Below are positions 2,045 to 58,878 of a stretch of DNA of 64,000 nucleotides, one piece after another (position 1 is the first letter of the stretch; the number at the start of each line of letters is the position of its first letter). The position numbers were made by a program, and so were the translations under genes. The stretch spans positions 1 to 64,000 of the forward strand of contig WHUZ01000015.1 in assembly GCA_015179045.1 (NCBI GenBank), read 5' to 3'. Origin of the DNA: Kalaharituber pfeilii. Its lineage: Eukaryota > Ascomycota > Pezizomycetes > Pezizales > Pezizaceae. The notes beneath the pieces were generated by a model. That model made no database searches, had not been told where the DNA came from, and was given only the letters and a program-made list of their open reading frames with translations.

Positions 2045-2130
2045 TGCTTGCCTCCGACCATTGCGGGCTTCGGCCCAGGGGGCCTACCATGGCGAACAGC
2101 TGCAAGCGGGGTTATGTGATATCAAAAAAA
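2045..2130 (+). mobile_element. Tail-B short retro-insertion, long form (86 bp)
   Basis: The insert begins TGCTTGCCTCCGACC, ends GGGGTTATGTGATATC plus A8, and is flanked by a perfect 14-bp duplication, AGGCCGGCCTATTA (2031-2044 and 2131-2144). The same 5' start is shared with the diverged copy at 57180-57270, so this looks like a discrete size class rather than random truncation. The 3' half matches the LINE-B terminus at 28200-28310. Confidence 0.85.
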
Positions 2131-2160
2131 AGGCCGGCCTATTACACCAAAAATGTACTT

Positions 2161-2215
2161 TTTTTTTTCTCTCTTTTTTTTTTATATATCATTAATCGCG
2201 TCCCGCCCTACGGGA
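2161..2215 (-). mobile_element. Tail-A short retro-insertion (55 bp)
   Basis: On the minus strand this is CCCGTAGGGCGGGACGCGAT followed by TAATGATATATA and an A-rich tail. Duplication AAAAATGTACTT flanks it (2149-2160 and 2216-2227). Truncation falls inside the LINE-A terminal hairpin. Confidence 0.85.
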
Positions 2216-2294
2216 AAAAATGTACTTGACGGGTAGACCAGAACGGCTAGACATACTGTAATCACACGCACATAAGTGAAAGTACGGAGCATTA

Positions 2295-2681
2295 GTGGTA
2301 TTCAGATTAGAAAAATCTAGCCGGATTTTGCAGATTTCAGAATTTTATCAAGTCCGGAAAATTCGGTCATCTCCATGCAAAAATTTATCTGGTTTTTTCA
2401 TGTTATAAACCAGTCAAACCAGTCAATTTCGTGTTTTTTCACGAAATAAATCCAGTAGGACTTTTGCGACAACTGCATATATATGATGCATCTTGCGGGC
2501 CTTGATGCAGTATTCAGGACCTGGCATGCATAAATTCTGGTAGATTTTTGGACCCAAAACTGGTTTCCGAATTGACAAAAAATCCGATTTTCACAAGAAG
2601 GTACTCAGACTACAGACCGGATAAACTGGTTTGTCCGCCGGATTCCATTTTTATATGGGGACAGTCTAATCTGAATACCTC
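2295..2681. mobile_element. MITE with TA target duplication (Tc1/mariner-type)
   Basis: Terminal inverted repeats GTGGTATTCAGATTAG (2295-2310) and CTAATCTGAATACCTC (2666-2681) match with one mismatch and are flanked by TA on both sides (2293-2294, 2682-2683). The element is 387 bp and has no ORF. TA duplication points to the IS630/Tc1/mariner superfamily, but no transposase is present to confirm this. Confidence 0.65.
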
Positions 2682-3133
2682 TATTGTAGAAGAATCACGG
2701 TTGTGACGTACCACATACTGATATGACCTATCTGCATGCTGTCCACGTCCGAATTGCAATCACAATCCGGTCCAGGAGATCCTGCGTATGCTGCAAAATC
2801 TGATTATCAACGCCAGTACTGCTGCACCAGATGCTGATGGAACTATCTGATCCTACACACCGTTGGGCTAGATCGCAATGCGCCGCGTGGATAGTTGGAT
2901 TTTGCCGTGCCTACCGTATGGAGAGCTCAATTATCTCCCCACAGAGACTCACTGCTACCAGTATAAGTGGTCTGAATCTGAAAGCAATTGTTTGACGCAT
3001 TATTCATTTAATTACAAAAATGCCTTAAGTAAGCGGTAGCTCTGTTGTTAGCGTAATTCGTTGTTGCACTTTAGCACGCGCAGGCTCAGATTGTACCAGT
3101 ACAGCACGTAGCGTGAATGTATTCCAGGGAATC

Positions 3134-3523
3134 GGTATCAGATTCTCTGACGCACCTCAGAGTGGGGATTGAAGGGAAAGGGGAATATGGGAAACTTGTT
3201 AGCCACGTGGGAAAGGTTTTAAGCGTACTGTAGGAACACAACTGCATTTGGCCGACGACCTGATTAAGGGACTAGTCGGCGTGCGAGCGAGGACTTACCA
3301 AGTGAGTGCGAGGATCTGATAGAGTGCATACTAGGTGGTACACACATGACTTGTATCAGATCCTAGAGCCACAATTTGTCAGGAATTCTGAAGCGGTTAC
3401 ATCAGAACACATAATCAGATCTCTGTATCTGCCAGAGTGCACCTGAAACCCCACCCTCCCACTCATCCTGTTTTGATTGTATTGTCCGAAGTGCAGAGGT
3501 GGTAAACAGGAGAATCTGATACC
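3134..3523. mobile_element. Inverted-repeat element, possible MITE (~390 bp)
   Basis: GGTATCAGATTCTC (3134-3147) and GAGAATCTGATACC (3510-3523) are perfect 14-bp inverted repeats 390 bp apart. The size resembles the element at 2295-2681 and the ends share a GGTATyAGATT core, so it may be related. No clean target duplication is visible. Confidence 0.45.
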
Positions 3524-3611
3524 CGTTACAGTATGTTGCACATCAGTTATCCTAGTTGGCTATTGAAGCACGCAACCCTTATCAGAATGATACCATTGCG
3601 TCAACGTTTTC

Positions 3612-3672
3612 TTCTTTTTTTTTTTTTCGTGTCACATAACCCCGCATACAGGCTACGAGCCTATGGCAGGGA
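3612..3672 (-). mobile_element. Tail-B short retro-insertion, B2 variant
   Basis: On the minus strand it reads CCCTGCCATAGGCTCGTAGC, continues CTGTATGCGGGGTTATGTGA, then poly(A). Flanking duplication GTCAACGTTyTC lies at 3600-3611 and 3673-3684 with one mismatch. B2 contains a perfect AGGCT...AGCCT hairpin, absent in that exact form from the common B1 core; the copy at 50688-50741 is the same variant. Confidence 0.75.
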
Positions 3673-4094: not shown

Positions 4095-4173
4095 CCTCGG
4101 TGGTTTGTGCTGGATAAACTTTTGCTTTTTTGCCTTTTATAATGTTACTCGTGTGCCGCTTACGGGCTACGAG

Positions 4174-4205
<32 letters not shown>

Positions 4206-5623: not shown

Positions 5624-6988
5624 ATGGCGAAAGAAGGCACGAGCGCACCCCAGCAAGCCGGATCTGCAGACCTGGCCACCATATTGAAAATCACACCGCG
5701 CATATCGGAAAAACTAAGGGACGAAAATGACTACCCAGCCTGGGTAGTGGAAGCTCAAAGGCAACTTCGCTGCCAGAAACTATTGGAGATAGTAGACGGG
5801 ACTACACCCAGGCCATCGTCTGGAGCAACAGATTGGGACGATAAGTCAGATAAAGCTCTAGATTACTTAATGGACAGCTGTGAGAAGGAGGCACAGCTGA
5901 AAATCAGGGCAGCTCCAAATGCGGCCGAGGCATGGAAAATTTTGAAGGACAATTATGATGGACAAACCAGAATTCACCTGTTCTCACTTCTCATGAATGT
6001 AACCCACTTAAGGTTCGATGACAGAAAAGACTCCCTTTCCGACCATATCACGGAATTCGAACGCCGATGGCTCAAACTTGCGCAATCCGCCAGCACAGGA
6101 TCCACAGTCACATTATCACTTGCGGCAGGAATTCATCCTTTTTGTCAAAGTGATGGTTGGAAAGCGACAATGCTGCTAGCCTCGTTACCACGCATGCAAT
6201 CTTATTAGAATATCATTGATAATATCACCTCAAAAGAAGACAAGCGCACCTACGCCAGTGTGGTAATGAGGTTAAAGGAAGTAACACCCCGGAAAAGATC
6301 ATCCAAAGACGAAATAACAATAGACCCTCAGGCAGCCCTCACTATCACTCAGGAATCTAAAAAGAAAGTACGATGCTGGCACTGTAAACGAGCCGGGTAT
6401 CTAGGAACAAACCATGACGAAAAGGACTGCAGATATAAGAACAAGCAAACTAAAGAGGCTCTTGTAATGGAAGAAAGAAAAGAAGAGGAGGAAAAAGAGG
6501 AGAAGTTCTTATTCATGTTATCTCAATCCACCAGCAGATCCTCTGCGTGGAACGTGGATTGTGCGGCGACTACCCATGTTATATACGATGTAAACGACCT
6601 CATTGATCCTCAGGAATGGCGTGAGGAAATAAAAGGAGCATCAGGCACGGCACTGTCCACACATAAAGGAACGGTAAAAGTCGGCAACCTCGTCCTGCCC
6701 AACGTCCTCGCCATTCCAACCTGCTCAAGAAAGTTAATCAGCTGGGGAGCATTAGAGGACGCCGGTGCAGACATAAGAATGCAGAATGGAGAGGGAACCA
6801 TCACACAGGATGGGAAAGTGACTCGCATCGTTAAGCAGGGAAAGTTCAGAATCATTCAACTTGAAAAGAATGAGGCGATGTCACTAGAACAAGAATGGCA
6901 TGAAAGTGTAAAGAATGGGTCAGGGTCGGGGTCGAGATACAGGGTAGGCAGCGGGTGCCAGGGAGGCAGCGGAGTTCACGGCGGGTAG
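5624..6988 (+). pseudogene. copia gag, zinc knuckle and protease-like region
   Basis: The reading frame from 5624 (194 aa) matches the UBN2-type copia Gag: DYPAWVVEAQRQL, then LKDNYDG and LSDHITEFERRW. It ends at a TAG at 6206-6208. Coding continues with a Lys-rich segment and a zinc-knuckle-like run CWHCKRAGYLGTNHDEKDC, whose C-C-to-His spacing (X9) is longer than the canonical X4. A protease-like active site follows, NVDCAATTHV, in place of the usual D-S/T-G. It ends at 6988 in a Gly/Ser/Arg-rich low-complexity run. Confidence 0.75.
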
Positions 6989-7285
6989 AGACAGTCGGCG
7001 CTATATGATGTAGAGAGAGATGTATGCAGAGTTACGTACAGCCTGAGGGTGGATACAAGTTGTTAGGTGAGGAGCAGAGAGGGACGTGGGGGATGAGCCT
7101 CCTTTATGGAGAGCCCAGGAATCTTGGCAGAAGAACATTCTAGATACAGGAGAATCAAACGAGCCCAGAAACTTGGCAGAAGAACAAACTAGCGCGCGGG
7201 AGAAACTTCGAGCTAATGCAGGAGAACATTCCGGACGAATCATGAATGCAAGAGAATATGCAGGAACATACGGGCAGCGACCGGG

Positions 7286-8749
7286 ATGCAAGCGGCTGCT
7301 GTGCGTAAGGACTCAGGGCTGGCGGCGAGGGTCGGAGCTTTCAGGCAATGCCGCTACGCGGCGGCTCGGCAGGAGTTCGGGCTGTGGCAGAGTCTCGGGG
7401 CCTCGGGCATCACGTGCAGGAGGAGTATTTCGGCCGGTGGAGGTTGGTTCGTTACAGAAAGGTATGGACATTTTCCCCTTTCCTCCTTCAAACTCATCCC
7501 AGAAGCACCCCCTTCTCTGTTACGTCGACCGCGCGAGGAATGTGATGCCTGCATGAGAGGAAGCATGAGCAAACCAGTAGCTGCATCTCAACTCAATAAG
7601 ATTCGGACAAAAGAAGTAGGAGAACTCGTGCATTCCGACATCTGTGGGCCCTACCCAACAGAGGGCGTTGGACGAAAAAGATACTTTATCACCCAGATAG
7701 ATGATCACTCCAGGATTACCCTAGCGCGAGCCACAGGAACGAAATCCGAGGCTGGGAAGGTGTTCAGAGAGATGGTCGAGCAGTTTGAGCGAGCATTTAG
7801 ACGCTCCGTCAAAGAAATAAGGACAGACTTCGGAGGGGAGTACTATTCGAATGAGACTAAAGAATGGGCGTTGAAGATAGGAACTACAATACGGCCAACT
7901 GTAGCACACCACAGTCAGACCAATGCCGTACCAGGGCGAACCAACTGTACCATTGCTTCTATGATCCGCAACAATCTGTTCGGGAGCAGTCTTCTGAAAA
8001 AATTCTGGCCCTATGCAATGGAATACATTGTATTCGTGAAGAATAGGCTCCCTCACATTTCGTTGGAAGGAAAATCTCCACTGGAGGTGGCTCGCCCTGG
8101 AACCAATATTCAAGAGGAGCGTTCAGCCTTGCGAGCATTCGGAGAACCTGTATATGCGCACACATACAATGACGGAAAACTATCCGAGCGAGCCATACCC
8201 GCCAGAATATTGACTCCATCTTTCACTCATGGTATCTACCGAGTGCTTCTAGCAAACAACAGGATTACCACTGCAAAGAACCCTCGGAGAAGGGATCCCA
8301 AAAAGAGCGCAATAGAAATCACTATCGATAGGGTCAGTAATGAAGAACCAATACACCAAGAAGAACGGCAGGAAGAGCAATCCATACCAGGTGCTTTTCC
8401 AAGCCTTGAAGTCCCCCAACGTTCACAGGTGGAATCCAGAACAACTACACCCAAGTCACAAGCAGAACCGAAGGTCAAAAGTACCAATCCGAGTCCACCA
8501 TCATTCCTGGAAGGAGGATGGACAAGCTACGGAAGCACATTCTCGGAAGCCATAGCGGCACGAGCTGCTGAAAGGCAGTTGTTTCAGGAGGCGGCGGAGC
8601 CAAGCCAAGACCAACCACAGCTGCAGCGATCTACAAGATTAAACAAAGGAACTGGTTCCAGGGTGAGACTAGACGAAGACCCAGGGTATGTGCATGAGGC
8701 ACATATCACTGTAACCGAAGCACTGGAGAGTCCGGAGGCGTTGAAATAG
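7286..8749 (+). pseudogene. copia integrase, catalytically damaged
   Basis: The first ~85 codons look like frame noise. From about 7540 the protein carries CDAC (end of the HHCC finger), VHSDICGP (first catalytic Asp), the core with IRTDFGGEYY (second Asp), and PGRTNCTIASMIRN where active elements have ERxNRT. The catalytic Glu is therefore replaced by Gly. A Pro/Ser/Glu-rich linker follows, and the frame stops just before the RT. Enzymatic function is very unlikely. Confidence 0.8.
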
Positions 8750-9340
8750 GAACTGGTGATAAACAGGGAGCTCGAACAGCTGAAGAAGCTTGAAGTATTT
8801 GATTGGGTAGATGATGTACCAGCTGGAAAGAAGGCAGTAGATATGAAATGGGTACTGAAGTAGAAGGAAGAGAAAGCCCCAGACGACCCCAAGAGGTATA
8901 AAGCTCGGTTAACCGCTCACAGCTTTACCCAACGGCTAGGAATCGATTTTACAGAGACATACGCGCCGGTCTGCCGGGAGGAGTCATGGAGGCTGGTGAT
9001 CTATGAAGCTCTGCGAAGAGAGATGGTAGTGGAACAGTTTGACGTGGAGTCTGCATTCCTTAATGGGCCATTGGATGAAGAAATATATATATGAAGGACC
9101 AGCATGCTACAGGGGAGAGAGCATGGAGGCTGAAAAAGGCACTGTACGGACTCAAGCAGGCAGCCTACAATTGAAATCAACTCATCCATCGGATCCTCAC
9201 AGAACTTGGATTTCACAGGTGCCTGGACGACCCAGGCCTGTATCTCACGGCCTCAGGGATGATCTGTATCCATGTGGATGATCTGCTGGTGGCATTCACA
9301 ACAAGACTCCTGCTTAACGAGTGGTATGAAAAAGTGACAT
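8750..9340 (+). pseudogene. copia reverse transcriptase remains
   Basis: Frames read MKWVLK*KEEKAPDDPKRYK, LTAHSFTQRLGIDFTETYAP, VEQFDVESAFLNGPLDEEIY and, after shifts, LKKALYGLKQAAYN and ICIHVDDLLVAF (the YxDD-type box as HVDD). Stops and shifts break it several times. Sequence recognisable as RT ends near 9340. Confidence 0.75.
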
Positions 9341-9379
9341 AACAGGTTGTACTGGAGCGAAGAGGCGAACCCCGGAAAT

Positions 9380-9439
9380 CCCTCGCCATAGCCTACAAGG
9401 CGGCACGCGAGTACTGAAATAAAAAAATAAAAAAAAAAA
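9380..9439 (+). mobile_element. Tail-A short retro-insertion (60 bp)
   Basis: The insert is CCCTCGCCATAGCCTACAAG, GCGGCACGCGAGTACTGAAAT and an A-rich tail. A perfect 13-bp duplication GAACCCCGGAAAT lies at 9367-9379 and 9440-9452. The inner stem is CCT/AGG here, against CCC/GGG in most copies. Confidence 0.9.
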
Positions 9440-9718
9440 GAACCCCGGAAATTTCTTGGTAAAATACTAGAAAGTGCCATATGGAAGGCTCCTTAGGTGT
9501 AGTTGAGCTTGAGGATATGCAAGCTACGCAGGATGTTATTCTTGTTGCATCAAGGTCCCATGTATCTTCCACTGCACCTATTTAGTTGTTCAGGTATTGT
9601 ACTCGAGTACATAATATCTTAGCCTAGGTACCTCTGAATCGTAATCCTTGAAAACCCTGCATATTACCGCACGCCACTGGCGATCCGCTTACCGTACAAG
9701 GAACTACCTGTCCCTGAG

Positions 9719-12900: not shown

Positions 12901-13834
12901 CAGGGGCCTCGGCCCATGGATTTCGGCCGCCAGCCTTCTGCTTCTGACAGTTATGGTATCGCCTGCCTCTGCTCTGCCATTCAATGAGAAACCCTTAGGG
13001 TTTCTCCAGCAAAAACGCACAGACTCCTGTTCAATGCCATCAACTCAATCGGCCTCCGTCGCAGTGTAGAGCCCTGTGCCCCTCTTGCGCCAGCTTCTCA
13101 AGTAACCGCCTGCCGCATTTCCTCCGGCGCCATCTCACTATTCCCAAACTCGCGTCTAGACATCCTTATAAGCTGTTCCTTGCGTGCCCCGGCCCTAAGT
13201 GGTTGATATCCTCCACCCATGATCCGCATGGTGCTTATGTATTTCCTCGTCCCTTAGCAATCCTGCTATCGACTCAAACACCTCCCTCTTATTTCCGAAT
13301 ATAACGTCTTAGATCTTCCTGGCAACATGTTATTGGAACCTCCCCCCGGCGTGTCCGACTCTCTGATCGCCTGATGAGTACACCACCACGCCTGGAGCCG
13401 CGCCGGCACCAGGGCCCAGCTGCCTGACCTTCGAGAAATAGGGACAAGGCAACGAGGCATTGACCTGCCTAAGCCTCCTGCTTCCCACTACCCCAAACCT
13501 TCAACCGATTCCCCACAAGGGCCTGGCATTAACAAGACTCCCCTCTCCAGTGAACTTTATATGCGGTTGTGCTCCATATCCAACACCTTTATATTAGGTG
13601 CTCTCCCCCACCCTGCGATCAGGTGCTAAGTCTTTCTTATCTCCACTTACCTCGAAATCCGCCTGCCTTCGATCACCTCTCCGCGGCTACCCCATACGTC
13701 ATACAGTACTCCTCCTAATTTGCGTCTCATCATGTAGGTGAAGTCATCGATATATGATCTCACATTCCCTCCGCCGGTTGCCTTCTCTAAATTGCCGCTA
13801 CCGCTGGTTCCACTACAATCAGCAGCAACCCCGC
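12901..13834. other. No recognised gene
   Basis: C/T-rich sequence with no coding or repeat identity recognised; it is the target region of the LINE-A insertion that starts at 13848. Confidence 0.35.
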
Positions 13835-13847
13835 ACCGCGCTCACTG

Positions 13848-15205
13848 AAAAGACTCAGACTGGGCAAAGCGGCATGGGCGACAGCAGCAAGACTCACAAA
13901 GTTACACCCAGCGAAACAGCGCCAGCTATACACAAGCATCGCCAGGAATATCGCGACGTGGGGGGCGTGGGCCTGGAGCGACTACGCTCACGGAGCTCCA
14001 AAAGAACGAAAGCTAAGGGACCTGGAGAAGTGGCAATATACTGTCACACGAGGCATAATTCGGGCGCCATGGGGGACAAGAAGAGAGGTGGTTGAAGGCC
14101 TGGCGAACTTGGAGTCGATAGAGACCTTCGTGAGAGCTGAGGCTGAGCGGGTAGAAGCAAGGGCACTCCGGTTCGAAGAGGAGGAGATACGAAGAAAAGA
14201 CTCGGAGAGCACGTACTTAAGAGGGAACTTCCAACACGGGGGGGAATTGCCTTTAGTGATCCTACCGACCTTGACCAGAGACGCGGAGGTGGCAGAGTGG
14301 AGAAGACACATAGATGACACAGTGGAAGAAGGATGGATTACAGCATACACAGACGGTAGCATGATCGGAGAGAAGGCCGGAGCAGGTATATCAATCGGAG
14401 GAGAGACGGATTCGATATATCTGGGAGCCCAGGCTACTGTCAACGATGCGGAGATATATGCAATCAGCGAGGCTGCAGAAAGGATGGAAGGAGAGCTACT
14501 CATCATCACAGATTCCAAGTTCGCGATATCCAGGATGTCAGCAATAGCAAAGGGACTGTCAACACCAGACGGGGCGACGAGGAGACTCAGGGAAGCCTGG
14601 AAAAGGCGACTGGATAGGGGGGACCTAGACATGGCTGTGATGTGGGTGAAAGGTCACAAAAGTATACCAGGAAATGAAGCAGCAGATGAGGCAGCGAGAA
14701 TAGGGACAGCGCTACAGTGCGCGGCAGAGGTGGTGACGGAAGCGGGGATAAGACAGGAGGCAAAGCGAGAGAGAGCACGAGAAAGAAATAGACTGGGTCT
14801 GACATACCGACCTCTGGAGAGACTCGGCGCGCGAGTATCGAGACTAGCGGGACTGTTGGGGGCGAAGGGACTACGCGCATGGAGACATCACATAGGGAGG
14901 CGACAGACCCAGGGTGTAGGTGGTGCGGGGAGGCGGAGGAGACCACCGTACATTTACTGGAGGGGTGTAGAGTGTGGCAGAAGAAATGGCCCGGGGGCAT
15001 GGCAGCAATAAGAAAACCCCCAAAGTGCAGGGAAGGAGAAGGTGACCCACTACAGGGGCTGATGGAGATGATGGAAGAGGACGGAGGGTGACTTCAGTTA
15101 CATTTCAGTGTGCCAGTATTTTATTTTCTCTATCTCTTTTAGTTCCTGTTGATCACATGTACCTAACACATCGCCATAGCCCACAGGGCGGTAAGCGATA
15201 AATGA

Positions 15206-15240
<35 letters not shown>
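13848..15240 (+). mobile_element. LINE-A, 1.39-kb 5'-truncated copy
   Basis: A perfect 13-bp target duplication ACCGCGCTCACTG (13835-13847 and 15241-15253) gives exact boundaries. The copy starts in the RT-to-RNase H linker (LGKAAWATAARL), runs through RNase H and the zinc finger, and ends in the AT-type hairpin tail (ATCGCCATAG...GCGATAAATGATAT) plus a ~30-nt poly(A). Confidence 0.95.
14088..15091 (+). pseudogene. LINE-A ORF2 C-terminal region: RNase H and CCHC finger
   Basis: The frame from 14088 encodes the linker (VVEGLANLESIETFV), then RNase H with catalytic positions in AYTDGSM (Asp), NDAEIYAISEA (Glu), IITDSK (Asp) and GNEAADEAA (Asp). Near 14900 a frameshift moves the finger CRWCGEAEETTVHLLEGC into the frame 14879-15091, so the protein is broken. 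Upstream (13848-14090) the linker is in a third frame. RNase H would remove the RNA template during retrotransposition. Confidence 0.85.
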
Positions 15241-22270: not shown

Positions 22271-22283
22271 TACGCAAAATCTT

Positions 22284-22341
22284 TTTTTTTTTTTTTTAAT
22301 ATCACATGACCCCGCTTGCAGCTGTTAGCCATGGCAGGGCG
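22284..22341 (-). mobile_element. Tail-B short retro-insertion, B1 core
   Basis: The minus strand reads GCCCTGCCATGGCTAACAGC, TGCAAGCGGGGTCATGTGATATT, poly(A). Flanks CGCAAAATCTT (22273-22283) and CGCAAACTCTT (22342-22352) are a duplication with one mismatch. Confidence 0.8.
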
Positions 22342-24133: not shown

Positions 24134-24137
24134 CCAC

Positions 24138-24799: not shown

Positions 24800-25445
24800 T
24801 TTTTTTGATCTTCTTTTGGCCTGGCCTGAACAATCAAGCCAGCCCAACCAGGCCGATCCAGGCCAACCAGGCCATTTACGTAAATTCAAGCGATTTTAGA
24901 ATTTAACCCAGGTGAATTAGATTTCAATAGTCCTGGATATTTCCACTATCAGTAATTGACAGTTGCGCATTAGATATCATCATCGAAGAATTGAGTCCTG
25001 TCTGTTGTATTATCTGGAAGGTCCATCATTTCTGAAATATTTTAGTATATATACTTGAATATAAAGTGTGATACATCCTGGACAAAAGTCGTATACCACT
25101 GCTGTTTACAATTCTAGATATACGGGAGATTCTACTCATTTAAATACTCAAACGATGTGGTAAACGCTGGCCTCAATTCACCTGGATAGCTGTGGAGTGA
25201 TTCGTTTAATTGGCTTGAACCTGCCTGGTTGGCCTGGACGGGCCTGGTTGGCCTGGACCGGCCTGATGGTCTGGACCGGCCTGGTTGGCCTGGACTGGCC
25301 TGGTTGGCCTGATTCATGTGGATCAGGCGCCCTGCCATGGTGAAGAGCTGCACGCGGGGTCATGTGATAAAAAAAAAAAAAAATGTGGATCAGGCCGGTC
25401 CAGGCCGGTCCAGGCCACTGAGCATCCCGGCCTGGTATCTGCTTT
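24800..25445. mobile_element. GGCCTGG-rich terminal-repeat element, copy 1
   Basis: Both ends are made of GGCCTGGACC / GGCCTGATT units (24820-24870 inverted; 25215-25440). Between them is a ~330-bp unique core (24885-25205) that is conserved, inverted, at 31715-32035. A poly(T) run (24785-24806) borders the left side. The core has no ORF. It may be a foldback-like element whose terminal arrays vary in copy number. Confidence 0.65.
25329..25382 (+). mobile_element. Tail-B short retro-insertion, B1 core (54 bp)
   Basis: GCCCTGCCATGGTGAAGAGC begins the insert; GCGGGGTCATGTGAT and A14 end it. Perfect 13-bp duplication ATGTGGATCAGGC at 25316-25328 and 25383-25395, inside the right terminal array of the GGCCTGG element, so it is younger than that element. 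Confidence 0.9.
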
Positions 25446-25923
25446 TCTAACAATTCTAATCCAATTATTCTCACCAATTATCTGAAATCTCTTTTGATCA
25501 GCCAGCTAATTCCATGAAACTAAATATCTTTTATTCTAGGTAGGTAAATCGATGCTGCAACCAAGGGGTGCCCCGCTTCAAAATTAACTTCAGTAAGAAG
25601 CTCAGGACCCCCTGAGCAAAAGTCTCAGCCTTTTCTATGGAATTGAGCCACAGCGATTGGCAAAGGAGGGAGAATGCAAAAGGTCATCGCGCTCGAATTT
25701 CTCCCTCTTTTTCGGGCCAAGAGTTTTAAAGCGGCAGCAAGAATGCTGCTACAACCAATCAAATCACGCTGCCTGCAGTAGCGCACTAAGCGAGTCGACT
25801 CCAGGCTCCAAACCATACGCGGCTCTAACAATCACGAGGACACCAGTCGCGGGAGTTTCAGTGGTAAGGATCGTGTGGGGACGGGAATAGGAAAGGAAAT
25901 CGTGAACATAGTGATACTCAGGC
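25446..25923. other. Nothing recognised
   Basis: No supported gene. Frames read only short random peptides. Confidence 0.35.
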
Positions 25924-26004
25924 ATGAATTATGAAGGGAATGTGGGGCTATTCTGCCCTATGAAAGAATGGGACAAGAAGTTCTTGGTGATCTCTGGTGG
26001 GAGG

Positions 26005-26037
<33 letters not shown>

Positions 26038-27168
26038 TCACGTGACCCCGCTTGTAACTGTTCGCCATGGCAGGGCGGGAGGCAGGTTACGGTGGAGGGT
26101 GCGATGGAGTGGAGTCAATTCACAGGGTACCAAACCGTAGGAATGGACGGCGCTTTCTTGCAGGCTGCGAAGAATGCAGAGGACCTCATGCGCGCAAGGG
26201 GAGTGGTAGGTTTGCATGAGGTATGGAGCTGCGCAGAGGCTGCCGACCATGAGTTCCAACCTGAGGAGATACTAAACCCAGAGCCAGACGCAACATACCT
26301 GAGAGGAGACCTAAGGCACCGGGACCCACTTCCGCTACACACATTCCCCACACACCCAAGCGACCTAAGCAAGGAAGCGTGGGAAGCCATCATACAGAGA
26401 GAAACAGACGAAGGGTGGGAGGGAGTCTACACGGACGGAAGCAGGATAGAAGGCTTAACGGGAGCCGGGGTATACATCCACACCACACAATCCCACGCCG
26501 CACAATCCCACTACCTAGGAAGAAGAAGCACGGTAAACGACGGCGAGCTTATAGCCATCAGCAAGGCCCTACAACTATCAGGGGAGACCATGATAGTTAC
26601 GGACTCACAAACGGCGATCGCAAGACTCCAGAAGATAGCCAGAGGGGAACCCACCGCCGACGGAGCCTCCAGCGAAGCAAGAAGACAGTGGGAAGAGAGG
26701 GTGGAAAGGGGAGACCTGGACCTCGCGATCATCTGGGTGAAAAGCCACAAAGGGGTAAAAGGCAACACAGAGGCGGACAGAGCGGCCAAAATCGGCACCG
26801 CCCTACAATGCCAAAACGAAATCATCACGGAAGCAGGCATAAGACAGGAATACAAAGCCTCCCGAGCCGCGGAGAGAAACCAAGCTGACCTGAACTACCG
26901 TCCACTCAAGAGACTAGACCACCGCCGGACTCTGGCCACCCTGGCAGGGATACTAGGGAACAAGGGATTGAAGGAGTGGAGATTCAAGATAGGAAAGGCC
27001 ACCTCTCCGGAATGCAGGTGGTGTGGCAAGGCGCCGGAGAACTGGGAGCACATAAGAAACGACTGCCAAATATGGCAAAGAAAGACCACGAAGGGGGCGG
27101 AGGGAATAAGACAGGCTGACAAAGAAACGAACTTGATGGAGATTTTGGAATGGGCGGGGAAGGAATAG
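25924..27168 (+). CDS. LINE-A ORF2 C-terminal part: RNase H and CCHC finger, uninterrupted
   Basis: A 414-aa open frame. RNase H residues: GVYTDGSRIEG (Asp), NDGELIAISKA (Glu), IVTDSQ (Asp), GNTEADRAAKIG (Asp). Finger: CRWCGKAPENWEHIRNDC. C-terminus MEILEWAGKE*. It is the only LINE-A copy here whose RNase H-to-stop segment has no visible frame damage; its subfamily differs from the Gly/Arg-rich copies (e.g. 34846-35490). The first ~55 residues include the translated tail-B insertion (poly-Phe), so the true protein start is elsewhere. No RT is attached. Confidence 0.8.
26011..26076 (-). mobile_element. Tail-B short retro-insertion inside LINE-A coding sequence
   Basis: Poly(T)26 is followed by the B1 core (minus strand GCCCTGCCATGGCGAACAGT...). 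Perfect 12-bp duplication GGGAGGCAGGTT at 25999-26010 and 26077-26088. The net gain of 78 bp keeps the surrounding reading frame open. Confidence 0.9.
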
Positions 27169-27283
27169 GGGACGAGCAGTTTAGTTATTTCCTTATATTA
27201 TAACAGTTACATGTATCTAAACATCGCCTTAGCCCATAGGGCGGCATGCGATAAATGAAAAAAAAAAAAAAAAAAAAAAAAGA
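26089..27283 (+). mobile_element. LINE-A copy with open RNase H frame
   Basis: The 5' limit is unclear (at or before 25999, because the tail-B insert lies in the same frame). The 3' end is the AT-type hairpin CATCGCCTTAGCCCATAGGG...GCGATAAATGA plus poly(A) to 27283. No target duplication was found. Confidence 0.8.
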
Positions 27284-34235: not shown

Positions 34236-34680
34236 CCATTTCAACAGCAATCTCAGCAGCAATTTCAGTAGCCATTGAAGTAGCCATTTCAACGGCCATT
34301 CCAGCTATCATTTCATCAGCCATGTGGGTAGCCGTTTCAGTAGCCCTTTCAGTAGCCATTTCAACGGCCGTTTCATCAGCCATTTCAGTAGCCATTTCGG
34401 TAGCCATTTCATCATCTATTTCAGTAGCCATTTTGGCAGCCATTTGAGTGGCCTTTTGAGCAGCCCTTTCACCATTTCACCAGCCATTTCGGCAGCTATT
34501 TCGGTAACCGTTTTGGCAGCCATTTCTTTTCTTTTTTTTTTTTTTTTTTTTAAATCACATAACCCCGCTTGTAGCACTTGGCCATGGCAGGGTCCCTGGG
34601 CAAGCCCTCATAGCCCGGAGACAGGCTAAACTAACTTGGCAGCCATTTCGATAGCCATTTCGGTAGCCGACAGTAGGTCT
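34236..34680. repeat. Minisatellite, 15-bp-type unit (AGCCATTTCAGT variants)
   Basis: Runs of AGCCATTTCAGT(A/C) units in variable spacing, read on the minus strand as MATEMATEIA-type repeats. It is interrupted by the tail-B insertion at 34527-34635. Confidence 0.8.
34527..34635 (-). mobile_element. Tail-B retro-insertion, extended form (109 bp)
   Basis: Poly(T), then the complement of AGCCTGTCTCCGGGCTATGA...CCCAGGGACCCTGCCATGGC...GGGGTTATGTGATTT. Perfect 14-bp duplication TTGGCAGCCATTTC (34513-34526 and 34636-34649). It matches the LINE-B 3' end over ~85 nt. Confidence 0.9.
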
Positions 34681-34718: not shown

Positions 34719-37700
34719 TTTTTTTTTTTTTTTTTTTTTTTATATCATTTAATCGCTTGCCGCCCTATGGGCTATGGCGATGTTGTGCTAGTTACATAAA
34801 AAGTGATTAGACTTTTCCCTTTCGTCGCTCCCCTGCTCACCCTCCTCACTCCTCCAACATTTGAAGAATTATGTCTAACTTGTCTCTCTCCCCTTCCCCC
34901 TTCTTCGGGGGATTCTTCACGTGCTCTTCCCCCCCTGGCCACCTCCTCTTCCAGACCCTGCACTCCCCCAGTAAATGGGCTTTCGTCTCCTCGGCTTCTC
35001 CGCACCATCTGCATTCCGGCCCATCCCCTTCACCGATCCTCCACCTCCACGCCCTCAGCCCCTTCCCTCCCAGGAGCCCCGCTATACGACTGACTCCCCT
35101 TCCTAATCTTTCTAGCGGTCTGTACGTCAGTTCTAACCTGTTCCTCTCTCCCGCTCTCTCTCTTCTGAGCCTCTGTCTCTGACCCGCCTCTGTGACCACC
35201 TCCGCTTTATATTGCAACGCTGTCCCCCAACCCGCCACCCTGTCTGCCTCTTCATTCCCTTCTATGCCTGCATGAGCCTTCACCCACATCACCGCTACAT
35301 CCACATCACCCCTCCTCACCCTCCTCTCCCAGGCTTCTCTCAACTTGTTCGTCGCCCCGTCGTGTGTTGGGTCTCCTCTCGATATCGCTCTCATTCTCCC
35401 AATCGCGTGTCTCGAGTCTGTCAGTATCAGCAACTCCCCCTCCACCCTCTCCATCACCTCGCTTATCGCTACCATCTCCGCGTCATTCACTGTAGCCTCT
35501 TCCCCCAGGTACTACGGGATCTTCTCTTGCCCCCAGCATGCTCCGGCTCCCGCTTTCCCCCCCCTCAGGCTCCCATCCGTGTAAACCGGGGTCCAACCCT
35601 CCTCCGTACTTTGACTTATATGTCTCTCCCACTCCCCTCTCTCCGCCCCCCTATGTAAGGAAGGGAGCACCGCCAACGGCATCCCCTCCCCATACGATAG
35701 GGAGCCCCTCAGGTACTCTTTCTCCTTGTCCTCTCTCCCCATCCTCTCCCCTCAAACCTCAACGCCCTAGCCTCCACCCTCGTCGACTCCCATCTCACAA
35801 ACGTCTCCACCGACTCTAAATTTGACAATCCCTCCACGACGTCGCGTCTCGTCCCCCATGGTGCCCCGATTATGCTTCTTGCCACCGTATACTGCCATCT
35901 CTCCATATCCCTCAGCTTCTTCTCCCTCGGGGCCCCGTGTGCATATTCGTACCACGCCCAAGCCCCCCACATCGCCACTGTTCTTGCCACCCCGGTGTAG
36001 ATCTGTCTCCTCTTATTCGGTTCCAGTCGCGGCAGTCTCGCTGCGGTGGCCCAGAGCGCCTTCCCCAGATTCAGTCTGTTTCTGTGATGTTCGTCGAATT
36101 TCATTTCCCAATCCACCCTCAAGCCCACCAGTCTATATGTCTTTCCCTTCACCCCGACCACCAGAGTCTCCTCCTTTTCCTCGTCCATTTCGAAACCCTC
36201 CTCTCCCGCGTCTCTCCGTAATGCTCGCCTGTGCTCTCTTATCTTCCTCTTCAGCGCCACCAAGCTCTTGTCCGCGATCACACTGTGGAAGTCGTCCACA
36301 TACGTTCTCGTGAACTCCCTCCTCCCCGTCTTCTCAGCAACCGGGGCCACCCCTACCAGGAACAACACCGGCGATATCGGAGATCCTTGAGGGGCGCCGT
36401 CTGTCATGGTGAACTCCGCCCGCCTCTCCCCATCCCACGATATCCCACATCTGGTCGGCCTCAAAAAGTTGTCCACAAACGCTGCCAGGTTCCTGTCCAC
36501 CTCCTCGATCCGTCTCACGACTCTCTCCCTCCTCACGTGATTGAACGCCGACTTTATATCATCCCCCACCAGCGCCACCCACTTCCCCTCCCCCAACTTC
36601 CCTTCCACCTCCTTCAAAACCTGTCTCTGCAAATCCTCCGCCCCTCTTCTGGGTCTCCCCCCCAACTGGGAGTCGCAAAATAACACATCGTGTCTCTGTA
36701 ATCTGTCCGCCACCACCTTCTGTCCTAATTTCGCCACCGTGTTGAGCAGAGTGATCGGTCTCCAACTCGACGGGAGGTCCCTCGGCTTCCCCTTCTTCCT
36801 CGTCATAACCACCTCGAACCCCTTCCCTAACTCGTAGTCCCCGTTTATGTAGTCCACTATCCTCTCCCTCACCGCCGCGAATAACTTCGTCCCTCTCAAC
36901 ATCTTCAAAAGCCCGTACTGAATTCCGTCCGGGCCTGGAGCCGACCTCGATTTCGTCTTGGATAGCGCTCTGTCTATCGCTGCTCTCGCCTCCTCCCTCT
37001 CCATCAGTCTACCCTCTGGCTTCCTCGGCTCCTCCTGCTCCTGCTCCCTCAACCCGGTAACGAAGTGTCTCTCTATCAACTTCTCCGCAACCTCCTGATC
37101 CGAGCCTTCGATTCCCATCAGCTCCCTGACCCTGAATGGATCTCTGGCTAGCCTGAATATGTCCCAAGGAGACGTGACCCTCTCCTCCTCCACCCAGTCT
37201 TCCCAGAACTTCTTTTTCTTCTCCCTTATCAACTCCCTGAACGCTCTCCTAGCCTCCGATCTGGTCTTCGCGTCAAATCCGTTCCCCTTCCTCAACATGT
37301 ACCTCACCATTCGCCTCTTCTCCTTCACCTCTCTATCGAACCACCTCTTTGACCTCTCTGATATCCGAGCCTCTTTCGTGAACATCTCGCTTAACTTCCT
37401 CAATACTACATAGGCGTCTGTCCCCTCTCTGAGCTCCTTATCCCCCCATCTCTCCACAAACTCGTCCCACTTCTCCCAGTCTGTCACCCTAATAGTCCTC
37501 TCTGCTGGTACTTGTCCTGTCGACCATGTGCCCACCAGCATCGCGTGGTCCGAGCCCGCTATCCATGTCACCCCCTCGAGGCTCCACTCCCCTTCTCTCG
37601 CAAATACTAAGTCCAGTAGTGCCGCCCGTCTCACTCCCTCCACCACCCTTGACCAGGTCTGAACTGTTCTGCCGATTCTCTGTCTCAATCCCCAAACCTC

Positions 37701-37858
37701 CATCCTACTCTTGAGCCTCTCCCCTCGCGTCTCCTGCTTGTCTGACCACTCCTCGTCATGGCTGTTACAGTCTCCTATCAGCAGGTCCGATCCCCCTATC
37801 AAATCTAGCTCCTCTTCTACGTCTGTCTCCCTGTTCCAATATACTCCCGTCACCCTCC
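34719..37858 (-). mobile_element. LINE-A, longest copy (3.14 kb, 5' truncated)
   Basis: Perfect 13-bp duplication GTCCGAATTGAGA (34706-34718 and 37859-37871). On the minus strand it starts inside the endonuclease domain and runs to the AT-type tail and poly(A). It defines the family: Tad1-like order EN-RT-RNase H-CCHC finger. Confidence 0.95.
34846..37853 (-). pseudogene. LINE-A ORF2: endonuclease, reverse transcriptase, RNase H, finger
   Basis: The largest frame (37853-35709, 714 aa) carries endonuclease motifs GDCNSHDEEW and AGSDHAMLVG, then RT: SSWRPITLLNTVAKL, DDIKSAFNHV, GAPQGSPISPVLF and the catalytic RTYVDDFHSVIADK, followed by the thumb/linker to VVEGLSNLESVETFVRW. A frameshift near 35720 moves coding to 35742-35512 (YLRGSLSYGE..., VYTDGSLRGG), and another near 35500 to 35490-34846 (NDAEMVAISEV, ILTDSRH, GNEEADRVAG, finger CRWCGEAEETKAHLLGEC, end ILQMLEE*). 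Two shifts outside the RT make it inactive; the RT itself looks intact. It performs target-primed reverse transcription in active relatives. Confidence 0.9.
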
Positions 37859-38104
37859 GTCCGAATTGAGACGAAAAACCCTGGGCAGCTTGTAATCAAC
37901 CCATCCACTCCTCAGCAAAGCTGAGTTCTCTCTGGGCACTGCCCTGGGAGCCATGACAAGACTACTAACTATATAGCAGCATATTGATGGAAGATAGACG
38001 GAAATGATTTGGGCAGGCGGGAAAATGCCCAATTATTTCCCAGGCTGCGAGATATTTTCTACAGTATCTAATTGATATCAATACTCATTTCCATTGCTAA
38101 CTCC

Positions 38105-40422: not shown

Positions 40423-40906
40423 TTTGAAAGTCTAGGTTATTCCTGCTTGATACGTATTTCCTTCGTTAGCGCATGCGCGTATTCAATTTTGTTTTTGTTT
40501 TTTTCAAAAAAAAAAAAAAAAAAAGAGAGAGAGCAAGAGTCTACAGACTTAGGATAGGATAGTTGCAGATCTGCTGTTTGCGTAAAGGAAAATTGGATGG
40601 CGATGCTTTGTGACTGGAATGGTTCGGTAGCTCCTGTATTTGTGCACAGTCCTAGCGGCATTAGAGGACAATGGAATTCCAGAGTCTGACAATGCTGGAG
40701 CCAGAGGTTGACGGTTCGAGAGGTGATAATGAAGGGTGCTCAATTGCAAGTTGAGGAGACTTGATGGTTATATATCTAATTTCCAGTGGTTCAAGGTCCC
40801 ACACAACATCAGTTAATTGTAAAAGAAGTATTCGTGACTGCTTCGCCTCTCTCTGCTGGTACAGGGAATAAGGTTGCATTTCCCCTCGGCTCCACGTCCC
40901 CAGTGT

Positions 40907-40966
40907 GCCCTGCCTTGGCGAATAGCTGCACGCGGGGTCACGTGAAAAAAAAAAAAAAAAAAAAAA
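40907..40966 (+). mobile_element. Tail-B short retro-insertion, B1 core (60 bp)
   Basis: Starts GCCCTGCCTTGGCGAATAGC, ends GGGGTCACGTGA and A23. Perfect 13-bp duplication ACGTCCCCAGTGT (40894-40906 and 40967-40979). Confidence 0.95.
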
Positions 40967-40984
40967 ACGTCCCCAGTGTATTGA

Positions 40985-41760: not shown

Positions 41761-41773
41761 AGATATTAATGAC

Positions 41774-41830
41774 GCCCTGCCATGGCGAACAGCTACAAGC
41801 GGGGTCACGTGAAAAAAAAAAAAAAAAAAA
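41774..41830 (+). mobile_element. Tail-B short retro-insertion, B1 core (57 bp)
   Basis: Starts GCCCTGCCATGGCGAACAGC and ends GGGGTCACGTGA plus poly(A). Perfect 13-bp duplication AGATATTAATGAC (41761-41773 and 41831-41843). Confidence 0.95.
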
Positions 41831-42135
41831 AGATATTAATGACTCCACCAGTTGGCAGCCACACCTAATCCCTGGTACAGGTGACCCTGGCTATACTGAA
41901 CCCCTTTTTGTTAGAACCTGTGAAGAGACGAGCGACAGGTAAAGAAAGTGCCCTCGCTACATTGAAAACTGTTTATAGTAACAAAAATCAGTCTGATTCT
42001 TGCCCTTCATTATAGGTAGTGTCACCTGTAGGAGGATATATCAGCCTTATTCGGGGATCTATCTCTTGGCCGTGTGGGAAGTCAATTCCTTAGGACGACA
42101 GGCTGGAGCGGACTCGGCTTCTACTCTACTAATAT

Positions 42136-47115: not shown

Positions 47116-47178
47116 GCCCTGCCACGGCGAACAGCTGCATGCGGGGTCACGTGACAAAAAAAAAAAAAAAAAAAAAAG
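47116..47178 (+). mobile_element. Tail-B short retro-insertion in LINE-A 3' coding end
   Basis: Starts GCCCTGCCACGGCGAACAGC. Flanks GACTGATGAAG (47105-47115) and GACGGATGGAG (47179-47189) match 9 of 11. Confidence 0.85.
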
Positions 47179-50402: not shown

Positions 50403-50413
50403 TTACTACCCTG

Positions 50414-50466
50414 TATCGCCATAGCCCATAGGGCGGCACGCGATTAATGATATAAAAAAAAAAAAA
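50414..50466 (+). mobile_element. Tail-A short retro-insertion, AT-type (53 bp)
   Basis: TATCGCCATAGCCCATAGGG, CGGCACGCGATTAATGATAT, A13. Perfect 11-bp duplication TTACTACCCTG (50403-50413 and 50467-50477). Confidence 0.95.
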
Positions 50467-50687
50467 TTACTACCCTGCGGAATAATCTCTTCCGACTCCA
50501 AAGAGCTCATACACACGCATCACACAGATTTAGACACTATACTATGATGAGATCAGGAGAAGGTCGAGATATGCAGTACAGCACTGTGGCACTGTACGCG
50601 CCCTCATACTATTTCTTTTACTATATTGGCTGCGTCAACCTCATCAACCCCCAACTCCAACTCTGGCAATTCCAATTCCGACCAAGC

Positions 50688-51655: not shown

Positions 51656-51669
51656 GACCCGCTCATACG

Positions 51670-51730
51670 CCCTGCCATGGCGAACAGCTGCAAGCGGGGT
51701 CACGTGAAAAAAAAAAAAAAAAAAAAAAAA
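51670..51730 (+). mobile_element. Tail-B short retro-insertion, B1 core (61 bp)
   Basis: GCCCTGCCATGGCGAACAGC at 5', GGGGTCACGTGA and poly(A) at 3'. Perfect 14-bp duplication GACCCGCTCATACG (51656-51669 and 51731-51744). Confidence 0.95.
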
Positions 51731-51855
51731 GACCCGCTCATACGCATAATTAATGGACTCCAAGATAGATCCAGTAGATACATAGTTCTTTTCTCCTCCT
51801 CTGTCGTTCTGCCTATATAGACCTGCCCGATATCTTGTCCCTCAATTCTTAACTT

Positions 51856-51916
51856 TTGTTTTTTTTTTTTTTTTTTTTCACGTGACCCCGCTTGTAGCTG
51901 TTCGCCATGGCAGGGC
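51856..51916 (-). mobile_element. Tail-B short retro-insertion, B1 core (61 bp)
   Basis: Antisense B1 core, 125 bp from the sense copy at 51670. Perfect 12-bp duplication AATTCTTAACTT (51844-51855 and 51917-51928). Confidence 0.95.
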
Positions 51917-51928
51917 AATTCTTAACTT

Positions 51929-53063: not shown

Positions 53064-53074
53064 TAGAATTTAAT

Positions 53075-53131
53075 ATCGCCATAGCCCACAGGGCGGCACG
53101 CGATCACTGATATTAAAAAAAAAAAAAAAAA
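53075..53131 (+). mobile_element. Tail-A short retro-insertion, AT-type (57 bp)
   Basis: ATCGCCATAGCCCACAGGGC, GGCACGCGATCACTGATATT, poly(A). Perfect 11-bp duplication TAGAATTTAAT (53064-53074 and 53132-53142). Confidence 0.95.
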
Positions 53132-53164
53132 TAGAATTTAATCATATGGAACCGGAGTATTATA

Positions 53165-56600: not shown

Positions 56601-57179
56601 AAATTGTGTTCCATCTGAGTCGGCAACGCGGAAAATGGTGACTGCTCCTCCATCCTCATCGTAAATTATACTACCGCAGCAGGCTCGGCGTCTCCACAGC
56701 TGTTGTAGATTCAGATAATCGTCACCTGCCAAAGCATTGGTCCTGGGTCATCCCCTGGTACGCATAGCTTCCCCACAATGGTTATTGTCCCATCGCAGGG
56801 TCCCGTGAATGCGTTGTTCATGTGAACAAGGTCTTCGGAGGAATTGTGGTGACCGTACGCTGGTGATGCTAAGGGAAGCTGATGATTCCGAAGAGAAAGT
56901 AGAATTTGTATATTTGATTCCTTCTCTCAGCATACACATTGAAATATCCTTTTCTCCCAAAATAGCAACGACTCCCCGTATTACATGCCCCCTGGTATTA
57001 GGATGCCAAACCATTTCTTCACCAACCTGGAATCCATGAGCTGCCACAATTACATATGTGGCGCTCTTGGGGTGCCGGGGCTCCGGACCTGCAGACCTTA
57101 AAGCCGGATATGGTAAGGAGTTTATTGTTTGCTTGGCAGCCACAACTGACCGTAACTCCCGGGCGCAAGTTCGGTAGAT

Positions 57180-57270
57180 ACGCTTGCCTCCGAGCATTGA
57201 GGGTTTTGACCCAGGGGTCTTACCATATGCATAACGAATAGAGTTAAACGGGGTTGCGTGATATGAAAAA
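57180..57270 (+). mobile_element. Tail-B long-form insertion, diverged (91 bp)
   Basis: Starts ACGCTTGCCTCCGAGCATTG, continues CCCAGGGGTCTTACCAT and ends GGGGTTGCGTGATATG plus A7. Aligns end to end with 2045-2130. Flanks AAGTTCGGTAGAT (57167-57179) and AAGTTGGGTAGAT (57271-57283) differ at one base. Confidence 0.8.
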
Positions 57271-57329
57271 AAGTTGGGTAGATGGGGCTGTTATCCGGTA
57301 CACCATGCTGAGGAGTTGTCACCCGTCGG

Positions 57330-57745
57330 AGTATTTGGGGAGCAGGAGGAGGGTATCCACTCTCGCAGGAATTCTGGGAAATACGGGACTACGACAGTGG
57401 AGATATCAAATAGGGAAGGAGACTTCTCCCGAATGCAGATGGTGCGGAAGAGACTTCGAAAATTTTGAGCACATCATGAGTAGGTGTGAAGTGTGGAAGA
57501 AAAGACTACCGAGAGGAGAGGCGGGGTTAAGGGAGCTGTCAAGAGATAAGGAGGGGGGAGACATAACGTTGGCGGAGGTGGTGGACTGGGCGGCGGAGTA
57601 ACCGGATATAGTCTCATTTTTTTCCTTTCACTTTATGGTTTTATATGCTATTTATTTTTCCATTTATTATTCTGCATGTATCTACACCCTCGCCGTAGCC
57701 TACAAGGCGGTATGCGAGTAATGAAATAAAAAATAAAAATAAAAA
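57330..57745 (+). mobile_element. LINE-A 3' fragment (416 bp)
   Basis: Perfect 13-bp duplication TGTCACCCGTCGG (57317-57329 and 57746-57758). Uninterrupted coding EYLGSRRRVSTLAGILGNTG, finger CRWCGRDFENFEHIMSRC, end LAEVVDWAAE* (57601), then UTR and tail-A with CCT/AGG inner stem and an A/T-mixed tail. Confidence 0.95.
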
Positions 57746-58811
57746 TGTCACCCGTCGGGCATGAAAAGCTGATGTTGCTGCCTCGAGTTTCTCGTTCTGG
57801 TATGTCGTCACCAACCTGCCAATGAGTGCAGGAAGGTGAACTTTTGTGCGGTCTGTTCCGGGTTGAAGGTGATAAGAAACCATGTTCTGCCCCATTGTAA
57901 CCACTACATTATCTGCCCATATTGTGCTTCAAAAGCATCTATAACTGTGGCGAACTCTTCCTCAGATGGAGCTTTCAAATGCGTAAGGTTCAGCTCCGCC
58001 TGCAATCTCCCGTTTCCCTAACCATACTCGTGGTAACAGGCCATCTTAAACAGGGGATCCGATAATGTCAAGCGTACTGGTGCACCAGCGATTAAGAGTG
58101 GCCAAGGAGGAGGGGGTAGGAACTTGGAGCTGGATAAGAATGAAGGGCGCATGCATACCGATGTATGTTGCGTTGGGAAGATGCGCATTATTATGTCACA
58201 CTCCTCATCCGTCGGCATTCGGAGCACCCCGTAATTGTGAGTGACAAGGTCGGGAAAACGATGTGTCGCTCCAACTTTGCTGGGATATTTTCCATCGAGA
58301 ATTGCTGCTGAGGGAGTTTTGAACTTAACGGTGCTATTGGCCCATCAGTCAACCCAGAAAGATATACAACTGTAGGAGACTTTGGTTTGTGTTGGTTCTC
58401 TGGATATAATGGCCCAAAGATGACGCCATTTCAGAGTTTTCTATCACATTGTCAGCCTATGCTTTGCCTGAGCCGCCAACTCACAAGCTCTCTTCGGCAT
58501 TTCGCCCCTCAACCGGGTATCCAATGAAGGAACACTTTTTTTTTTTAAAAAAAATATCATTACGTCAGAGGGATCAGCTTTTGCAGAGAATGATATCAAA
58601 CTCACCCTCTACTTCTTCTGAGTCTGTAACCCGAGCTGGCAAGCGTCCACCTCTCCGAGTGATTCTGTTAATACTAAGTAAATGAACGGAAGAAAACCTA
58701 GGCTATAGCGAAGTGAACCCTGCTGTGAGTTTCTTCGGAAAGTTGGGAGGTTAAGGATTTGGAAGAAGAGTGCGACCACAGGCGGTGTATATCTAGAGCT
58801 TGGCATCCATT

Positions 58812-58878
58812 ACCCCGCCATAGCCTATAAGGCGGCATGCGAGTAATGAAATTAAAAAAAAAAAAAAAAAAAAAAAAA
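58812..58878 (+). mobile_element. Tail-A short retro-insertion (67 bp)
   Basis: ACCCCGCCATAGCCTATAAG, GCGGCATGCGAGTAATGAAATT, poly(A). Perfect 12-bp duplication TTGGCATCCATT (58800-58811 and 58879-58890). Confidence 0.95.

Follow-up and report, generated by a model that had tools for sequence, protein, structure and literature searches.

LINE-tail insertions of about 40 nt beginning at hairpin bases in the genome of Kalaharituber pfeilii

Here we describe, in the fungus Kalaharituber pfeilii, insertions consisting of nothing but the tail of long interspersed nuclear elements (LINEs), namely the tail hairpin followed by poly(A). The search covered a stretch of 64,000 nt (bases 1-64000 of contig WHUZ01000015.1, called the window below) together with the assembly GCA_015179045.1 (78,031,657 bases in 360 contigs). 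Well over 1000 insertions correspond to the last ~40 nt of LINEs alone and start at a near-identical letter. These tail-only copies are termed minis, and copies with two hairpins mids. Like LINE-derived target-primed retrocopies, minis display target-site duplications (TSDs), a 3′ poly(A), LINE 3′-end sequence and a target preference specific to each family; they also have fixed 5′ ends and originate from several LINE tails (A, B1, B2 and C). The point where a LINE copy starts is usually ascribed to reverse transcriptase dropping off at random; in several tail families here it is fixed at predicted stem bases, with single-base precision in B. We propose that several LINE families recurrently return to the genome ~40-nt hairpin RNAs, which would arise from LINE transcripts by cutting or trimming that leaves a nearly base-exact 5′ end, a proposal whose chances of being right or wrong seem to us about equal.

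Abundance of tail-only copies and position of their 5′ ends

The exact B2 pattern GCCCTGCCATGGCGAACAGC occurs 1405 times in the genome, with the LINE bases AGGG directly before it in 158 cases (11.2%) and without them in 1247 (88.8%), a ratio of copies without LINE context to copies with it of about 8:1. For the exact B1 pattern ACCCTGCCATGGCCAAGTGC, present 342 times, the corresponding numbers are 170 (49.7%) and 172 (50.3%). Reversed patterns, used as controls for both counts, gave no match. Because the class without AGGG could include mutated longer copies, 14 of its B1 members were fetched as a check: each of them proved to be tail-only and to share one first base, with 11 placed by script (0 to +4) and three by eye, the TSDs of these three being A-rich or locally repeated. 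The B1 search pattern itself fixes that first base, and the exactness of the start rests instead on a set of 44 B2 copies presented below.

Tail A gives 3663 pattern matches genome-wide, with upstream sequences too varied for a count of the AGGG type. Among 133 scorable copies of a sample, 32 were tail-only, 87 long and 14 unclassified; in the long class, 53 of 67 A copies without TSD were placed by an upstream similarity of at least 0.6, a value which 4 of the 32 minis also reach. Family C (CCCTGCCATAGGCT...; TCCCTGCCATAGGCT..AGCCTGTATGCGGGGTTA) is a third tail with its own LINE context and 238 strict matches genome-wide. Of 16 strict matches fetched, 14 have a LINE context ending in ATGGG. 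The other two appear to be tail-only, L159 as placed by script and L174 on visual inspection, which makes 3 of 17 with the window copy included. The loose pattern TCCCTGCCATAGGCT occurs 579 times, 255 of them after ATGGG; six loose matches without ATGGG comprised three mini-like copies with imperfect TSDs by eye, a longer copy, a copy without tail and an unclassed variant.

Except for A and C, fractions are quoted from whole-genome counts, since sampling was not uniform. Loci L005-L024 lie at set positions; L001-L004, L025-L044 and L065-L084 surround exact B2 cores, and L045-L064, L085-L104 and L125-L144 surround A-pattern matches. L105-L124 were chosen with AGGG upstream and L145-L158 without it, L159-L174 by the C pattern and L175-L180 by the C pattern without ATGGG.

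The 5′ end of each copy was taken from its TSD, for which the sequence following the poly(A) was matched against an interval reaching from 600 bases before the tail to 30 bases within it. The main set comprises 145 records and 355,711 bases (about 0.36 of 78 Mb) with 253 tail matches; a TSD could be assigned to 69 of the 151 A matches and to 62 of the 102 B matches. When 3′ flanks were swapped between copies, a TSD appeared in 63 of 1111 pairs, reaching a score of at least 10 in eight, two of which fell within -10 to +8. As this control rarely gives strong TSDs near position 0, the TSD-anchored peak exceeds chance. The counts below use strong TSDs (score at least 10) and the main set with the B1 loci added, ‘B2’ standing here for all B copies except the B1 and TTAG types; two loci (L072 and L073) have a common flank and possibly represent a single insertion that was duplicated. 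Left out from the main set are 7 A and 6 B matches in which no poly(A) was detected, 6 A and 3 B matches close to the end of a locus, and 69 A and 31 B matches for which no TSD was detected; by eye, several of this last group are minis whose TSDs have diverged.

The initial annotation, made on the window, had predicted that 5′ ends would not fall off smoothly with length, and this is borne out in the loci sampled: B ends form two clusters and A ends a peak on a scattered background. The 52 B2 copies with strong TSDs start at -2 to +5 in 36 cases and at -39 to -35 in 10, this second cluster coinciding with the stem base of a further hairpin, located ~37 nt upstream. None starts at -34 to -3 or at +6 to +20, and the six strays lie at -168, -92, -77, -69, -52 and +30, those at -77, -69 and +30 involving nested insertions. 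Of 15 B1 copies, 12 start at 0 to +4; the others start at -31, which by eye is the hairpin I base of that subfamily, at -42, and at -60 (L151), where inspection by eye points to a mini plus a longer repeat arising by chance. For tail A, 29 of 57 starts fall within the 9 nt from -5 to +3, mostly 0-2 nt 5′ of the stem, in agreement with the earlier claim that tail-A copies begin near the hairpin base, and 28 are scattered from -31 to -573. With a local density of 9 per 100 nt, 0.81 starts are predicted in the peak, an excess of ~36-fold (Poisson P about 1e-34). Of 32 A starts with TSD scores of at least 9, 28 lie at -2 to +3. In stretches unselected for tails (the window and L005-L024), strong TSDs put the start at the hairpin base in 9 of 20 A (-5 to 0) and 9 of 12 B copies (0 to +3), the three remaining B starts being -31, -36 and -42. 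The sequences at these start points are GCCCTGCC, ACCCTGCC and TCCCTGCC at the hairpin base and AAGCCTGCC at the upstream start.

Most B copies start at a single nucleotide. The 44 exact-B2-core copies were picked blind to their first bases and comprise 27 minis and three two-hairpin copies by TSD, plus 14 without usable TSD which by eye divide into eight without LINE context, four with it and two in nested insertions. At position 0 the 27 minis carry G, the LINE base, in 25 cases and A or T in one each; at position -1, where the LINE also has G, they carry T in 15, C in eight, A in two and G in two. The B2 start is therefore base-exact, position 0 matching the LINE in 25 of 27 minis and position -1 in 2 of 27. 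Moreover, when the scan used the 3′ arm alone, and provided that poly(A) and sufficient upstream sequence were available, the 5′ arm accompanied 93 of 100 B matches and 102 of 107 A matches; several of the 12 matches without it are nested copies, family C or indel variants. Very short copies would escape the search.

Two observations concern other starts. Three A copies with strong TSDs (L011, L062 and window position 30595) begin at -48 to -51, close to the motif ACATGTA(G/T)TTAG; one A subfamily may have a further favoured start there. A run of ~15-25 T directly precedes the mid start in L124, inside the TSDs, and the mini start in L077; this may reflect untemplated A added to the end of the complementary DNA (cDNA) or insertion into a T run.

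Predicted folds, target preference and lineage

Mini-B is predicted to fold from its first base into a 7-bp stem. In the 76-nt mids (AAGCCTGCC...), hairpin I is predicted from the first base, followed by a weaker hairpin II and then the terminal hairpin; both B start points are thus the first base of a predicted stem, and no B2 copy starts at hairpin II. Paired positions vary together. Among 133 A cores, 91 have C-G and 35 have A-T as the outer pair; at an inner pair, 113 have C-G and 17 T-A. Similarly, the hairpin I arms (n=38) are AAGCC/GGCTT in 24, TAGCC/GGCTA in six, ATGCT/AGCAT in one and five other combinations in seven. Such pairing-preserving variation, counted without phylogenetic control, is consistent with a structure that has been kept.

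In all groups the median TSD match is 12-13.5 bp and the tail 21-27 nt. TSDs begin with T in 11 of the 29 A minis and 12 of the 28 remaining A copies, versus 3 of the 48 B minis and none of the 12 B mids. The difference between families (A 23/57 versus B 3/60, p = 3.5e-6) holds for minis alone (p = 0.0014), and A minis resemble other A copies (p = 0.79). Since A and B differ in this preference and A minis behave like other A, each mini looks like the work of the endonuclease of its own LINE family. The sequence of minis is identical to LINE 3′ ends. When the hairpin variants of 32 A minis were compared with those of 87 long A copies, nearest-neighbour agreement was 77.4 against 71.7 after permutation (p = 0.10); in this comparison, which covers A alone, the minis display no sign of a separate sequence lineage. 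Mini formation thus appears to recur, as A minis carry the same hairpin variants as long copies.

Origin of the hairpin templates

We suggest that minis derive from short LINE-tail RNAs whose 5′ end would be set near the stem base by trimming or cleavage, and which the LINE machinery would copy to the end; we are evenly divided on whether this holds. LINE transcripts would be degraded or cleaved down to their structured 3′ end, with the 5′ end fixed near the stem base of the terminal hairpin or, less often, of the hairpin ~37 nt upstream. Ends on the 5′ side could be produced by a cut or by 5′-3′ decay that comes to a halt where the 3′ end is structured and bound by protein; in either case some agent would trim or cleave the transcript. 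The resulting polyadenylated RNA of ~40 (or ~76) nt would retain the hairpin, which the LINE reverse transcriptase probably recognises, and would be copied to its very 5′ end by target priming, at a site nicked by the endonuclease of the same LINE family. The scheme predicts 5′ ends on the 5′ side of stems, since that is where the template RNA itself would begin.

Several points speak against this scheme. Starts in A are less exact than in B, often with 1-2 extra bases, and one B1 copy (offset -42) begins a few bases upstream of hairpin I. In the fold predicted with LINE context, base -1 is also paired (0.98 in B2, 0.86 in B1), and minis therefore begin one base inside the stem, where an exonuclease halted by the stem is not expected to stop. 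The first base of C is unpaired in the predicted fold. When more upstream sequence is included, hairpin I of B2 disappears from the minimum-energy fold, as does the A hairpin in those A contexts that were tried. Single hairpins are only modestly stabler than shuffled sequences (z -1.1 to -2.4), the values for two multi-hairpin B tails being -0.5 and -0.3.

To explain the fixed starts, the initial annotation had offered either an RNA fold stopping the reverse transcriptase or a ~40-nt RNA, processed or transcribed, mobilised in trans. The 5′ ends do coincide with predicted structure. In its simple form, in which the fold blocks the advancing enzyme, the first idea nevertheless puts the ends on the wrong side: reverse transcriptase moves 3′ to 5′ and meets the 3′ side of the stem first, so that a block would either leave the hairpin uncopied or halt the enzyme at the next hairpin's 3′ foot, which lies at about -4 in B, yet the complete hairpin is copied, the ends lie at its 5′ side and 0 of 52 B2 ends fall at -34 to -3. 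Nor does the most stable predicted hairpin have the highest tail-only share, in a comparison confounded by age and activity: the share is 3 of 17 for C at -18.6 kcal/mol (loose upper bound 324/579), 89% for B2 at -14.3, 50% for B1 at -13.6 and 32 of 133 for A at -11.5 to -13.5. We hold a simple block to be very improbable. The same figures, with the same confounding, lean towards a mini share that depends on RNA supply and not on hairpin stability. Alternatively, full-length LINE RNA could be the template and reverse transcription could end once the terminal hairpin has been copied, the cDNA folding on itself and peeling off or the enzyme being held by the bound structure. This rival is a serious one: it accounts for ends at the 5′ side of stems and for a second cluster at another stem base, it needs no additional RNA species, and the RNase H domain of the LINE could free the cDNA. 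It is harder to reconcile with base-exact starts (25/27 in B2; 14/14 in B1, where the pattern fixes the base) and with the disparity between mini share and predicted stability just described, and we judge termination on hairpin completion possible, on the unlikely side.

As for an RNA acting in trans, the processed version fits best, the RNA species being deduced from its copies, and a single mini gene is disfavoured. An independently transcribed ~40-nt gene, i.e. a true miniature short interspersed nuclear element (SINE) with its own master copies, would give a base-exact 5′ end and the SINE-like abundance of B2 (1247 of 1405 without LINE context). On the other hand, minis come from several tails (A, B1, B2 and C), A minis show no sign of a separate lineage, and a consensus scan for RNA polymerase III A and B boxes found no B box in seven tail sequences and an A-box-like match in three A variants only. 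Such a gene appears improbable. Random 5′ truncation combined with chance or detection bias would agree with the scattered A ends (28/57) and with the loss of very short copies from the search, but it leaves the ~36-fold A peak unexplained, as well as the near absence of B2 ends outside the two clusters (6/52, three of them nesting artefacts) and the 5′ arm recovered by the 3′-arm-only scan in 93/100 B and 102/107 A matches; we give it next to no credit. Later deletion of longer copies is not favoured, as TSDs abut the hairpin. A known ribozyme was also considered as the agent setting the 5′ end, and no Rfam family reached its gathering score in the window and ten loci.

Minis invite comparison with SINEs, which are mobilised by a LINE through a common 3′ tail and usually exceed about 80 nt. 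Both have a fixed 5′ end, poly(A) and TSDs, are non-coding and use LINE machinery. Minis differ from SINEs by their ~40 nt, by the absence of a body or complete RNA polymerase III promoter and by their apparently recurrent origin from several LINE tails. If the proposed origin holds, no smaller SINE-like retroposon would be known to us than these, which have no complete promoter and no body beyond the hairpin. From ordinary 5′-truncated LINE copies, whose ends scatter, they are set apart by the two clusters of B and the peak of A. Among described fungal elements, Ylli of Yarrowia lipolytica has left 104 fragments, 30 bp to 1 kb in length, that are likewise LINE 3′ ends with poly(A). The cited part of that study, however, identified no TSDs and describes no common 5′ end (PMC5014426), whereas minis have clear TSDs and a fixed 5′ end. 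Magnaporthe MINEs also involve fungal LINE 3′ ends inserted with direct repeats, of 10-20 bp, but are described in the cited text as fusions by template switching (PMC2104539); in minis the TSD abuts the hairpin. Enzymes of stringent-type LINEs need a 3′-terminal stem-loop, a feature present in minis as well; the cited part of this work deals with recognition, not with a fixed 5′ boundary (PMC5135761), and by analogy a LINE protein would recognise the mini hairpin. No report on fixed hairpin-base starts appeared among the entries listed in a search of open-licence PubMed Central text. The hairpin with poly(A) may be the minimal LINE template, displayed by more than 1000 natural insertions. If the template is indeed a trimmed RNA, LINE decay products would give rise directly to SINE-like elements, and minis would constitute a natural library of active 3′ hairpins.

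Tail copies and source LINEs in the window

LINE 3′ ends are densely packed in the window: scanning it with five tail cores gave 39 tail-A/B matches, of which 12 are tail-only (eight tail-B and four tail-A); a 13th tail-only site belongs to family C. The initial annotation had spoken of at least 15 such sites: the strict number is 13, and 15 is exceeded if two-hairpin and other short copies (2045, 27631, 30595, 34555, 45993) are counted. Its statement that eight tail-B copies share the start GCCCTGCC is exact, all eight tail-B minis of the window beginning there, and its eight example sites do consist of tail hairpin and poly(A) between TSDs, with match scores of 11 to 15.

The four tail-A minis, all on the plus strand, lie at 9369..9451 (match at 9382; both TSDs GAACCCCGGAAAT, two additional bases ahead of the hairpin), 50403..50476 (match at 50415; a variant with an A-T outer pair, TSDs TTACTACCCTG), 53064..53142 (match at 53075; TSDs TAGAATTTAAT) and 58800..58890 (match at 58814; TSDs TTGGCATCCATT). 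Tail-B minis with well-defined TSDs occupy 40895..40979 (+, start 40907; CGTCCCCAGTGT), 41762..41843 (+, start 41774; GATATTAATGAC), 51657..51745 (+, start 51669; GACCCGCTCATAC(GC)) and 51842..51928 (-, start 51878; GTTAAGAATT(G)), the last forming an inverted pair with the plus-strand copy at 51669. The core scan also yielded tail-B minis at 25329..25383 (+, hairpin with tail) and 26009..26076 (-, start 26038), and others with a weak TSD (score 8) at 22282..22340 (-, start 22302) and with a diverged TSD (GGACTGATGAAG / GGACGGATGGAG by eye) at 47116..47177 (+). The tail-C mini is at about 3609..3672 (-), its TSD, read by eye, being GTCAACGTT on the plus strand. Two further short copies are a B-type two-hairpin mid at 2045..2131 (+), which starts at the base of the upstream hairpin and has the TSD GGCCGGCCTATTA, and a B1 copy at 34555..34634 (-) with offset -42, a few bases 5′ of hairpin I, an exception to the stem-base rule.

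Tail A follows an RNase H frame at two places in the window. The frame at 25915-27168 (+) is separated from the tail by at most 55 bases, the feature 25915..27261 being a LINE-A 3′ end, and the frame at 13791-15011 (+) belongs to a second LINE-A 3′ end, 13791..15208. On the minus strand, the frame 35709-37895 contains a reverse-transcriptase and an endonuclease-like domain, the latter below the Pfam cut-off; with the tail A found 0.9 kb downstream (34742-34781) it would form one element. A protein search with the LINE frame, in which 7994 candidates were scored, returned three distant proteins. Outside the window, a tail-B1 copy in locus L012 is accompanied by distinct frames that encode an endonuclease domain, a reverse-transcriptase domain divided between two frames, and an RNase H domain; the RNase H frame ends at 9637 and the tail lies at 9759. 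The reverse transcriptases of the window LINE and of this B1 element compare at 32% over 236 amino acids. Five loci (L106, L107, L108, L110 and L116) contain B-type tails with other hairpin I/II sequences, in some of which the loop of hairpin II is TTCG (GGACTTCGGTCC); this suggests further LINE-B subfamilies.

Minis also insert into one another, as a mini-B nested in a mini-B (L082) and a mini-A nested in a mini-B (L078), each with its own TSD. At 51667-51918 of the window, the two inverted mini-B copies create an inverted repeat of ~250 nt. This segment was hit by the Rfam family MIR8562 with 67.7 and 64.4 bits against a gathering score of 211, and the hit is taken as a chance product of the two inverted copies. 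Finally, the tail-A copy at 9382 sits in the 3′ part of what reads, from its frames, as a decayed Copia-like retrotransposon (5640-9480).

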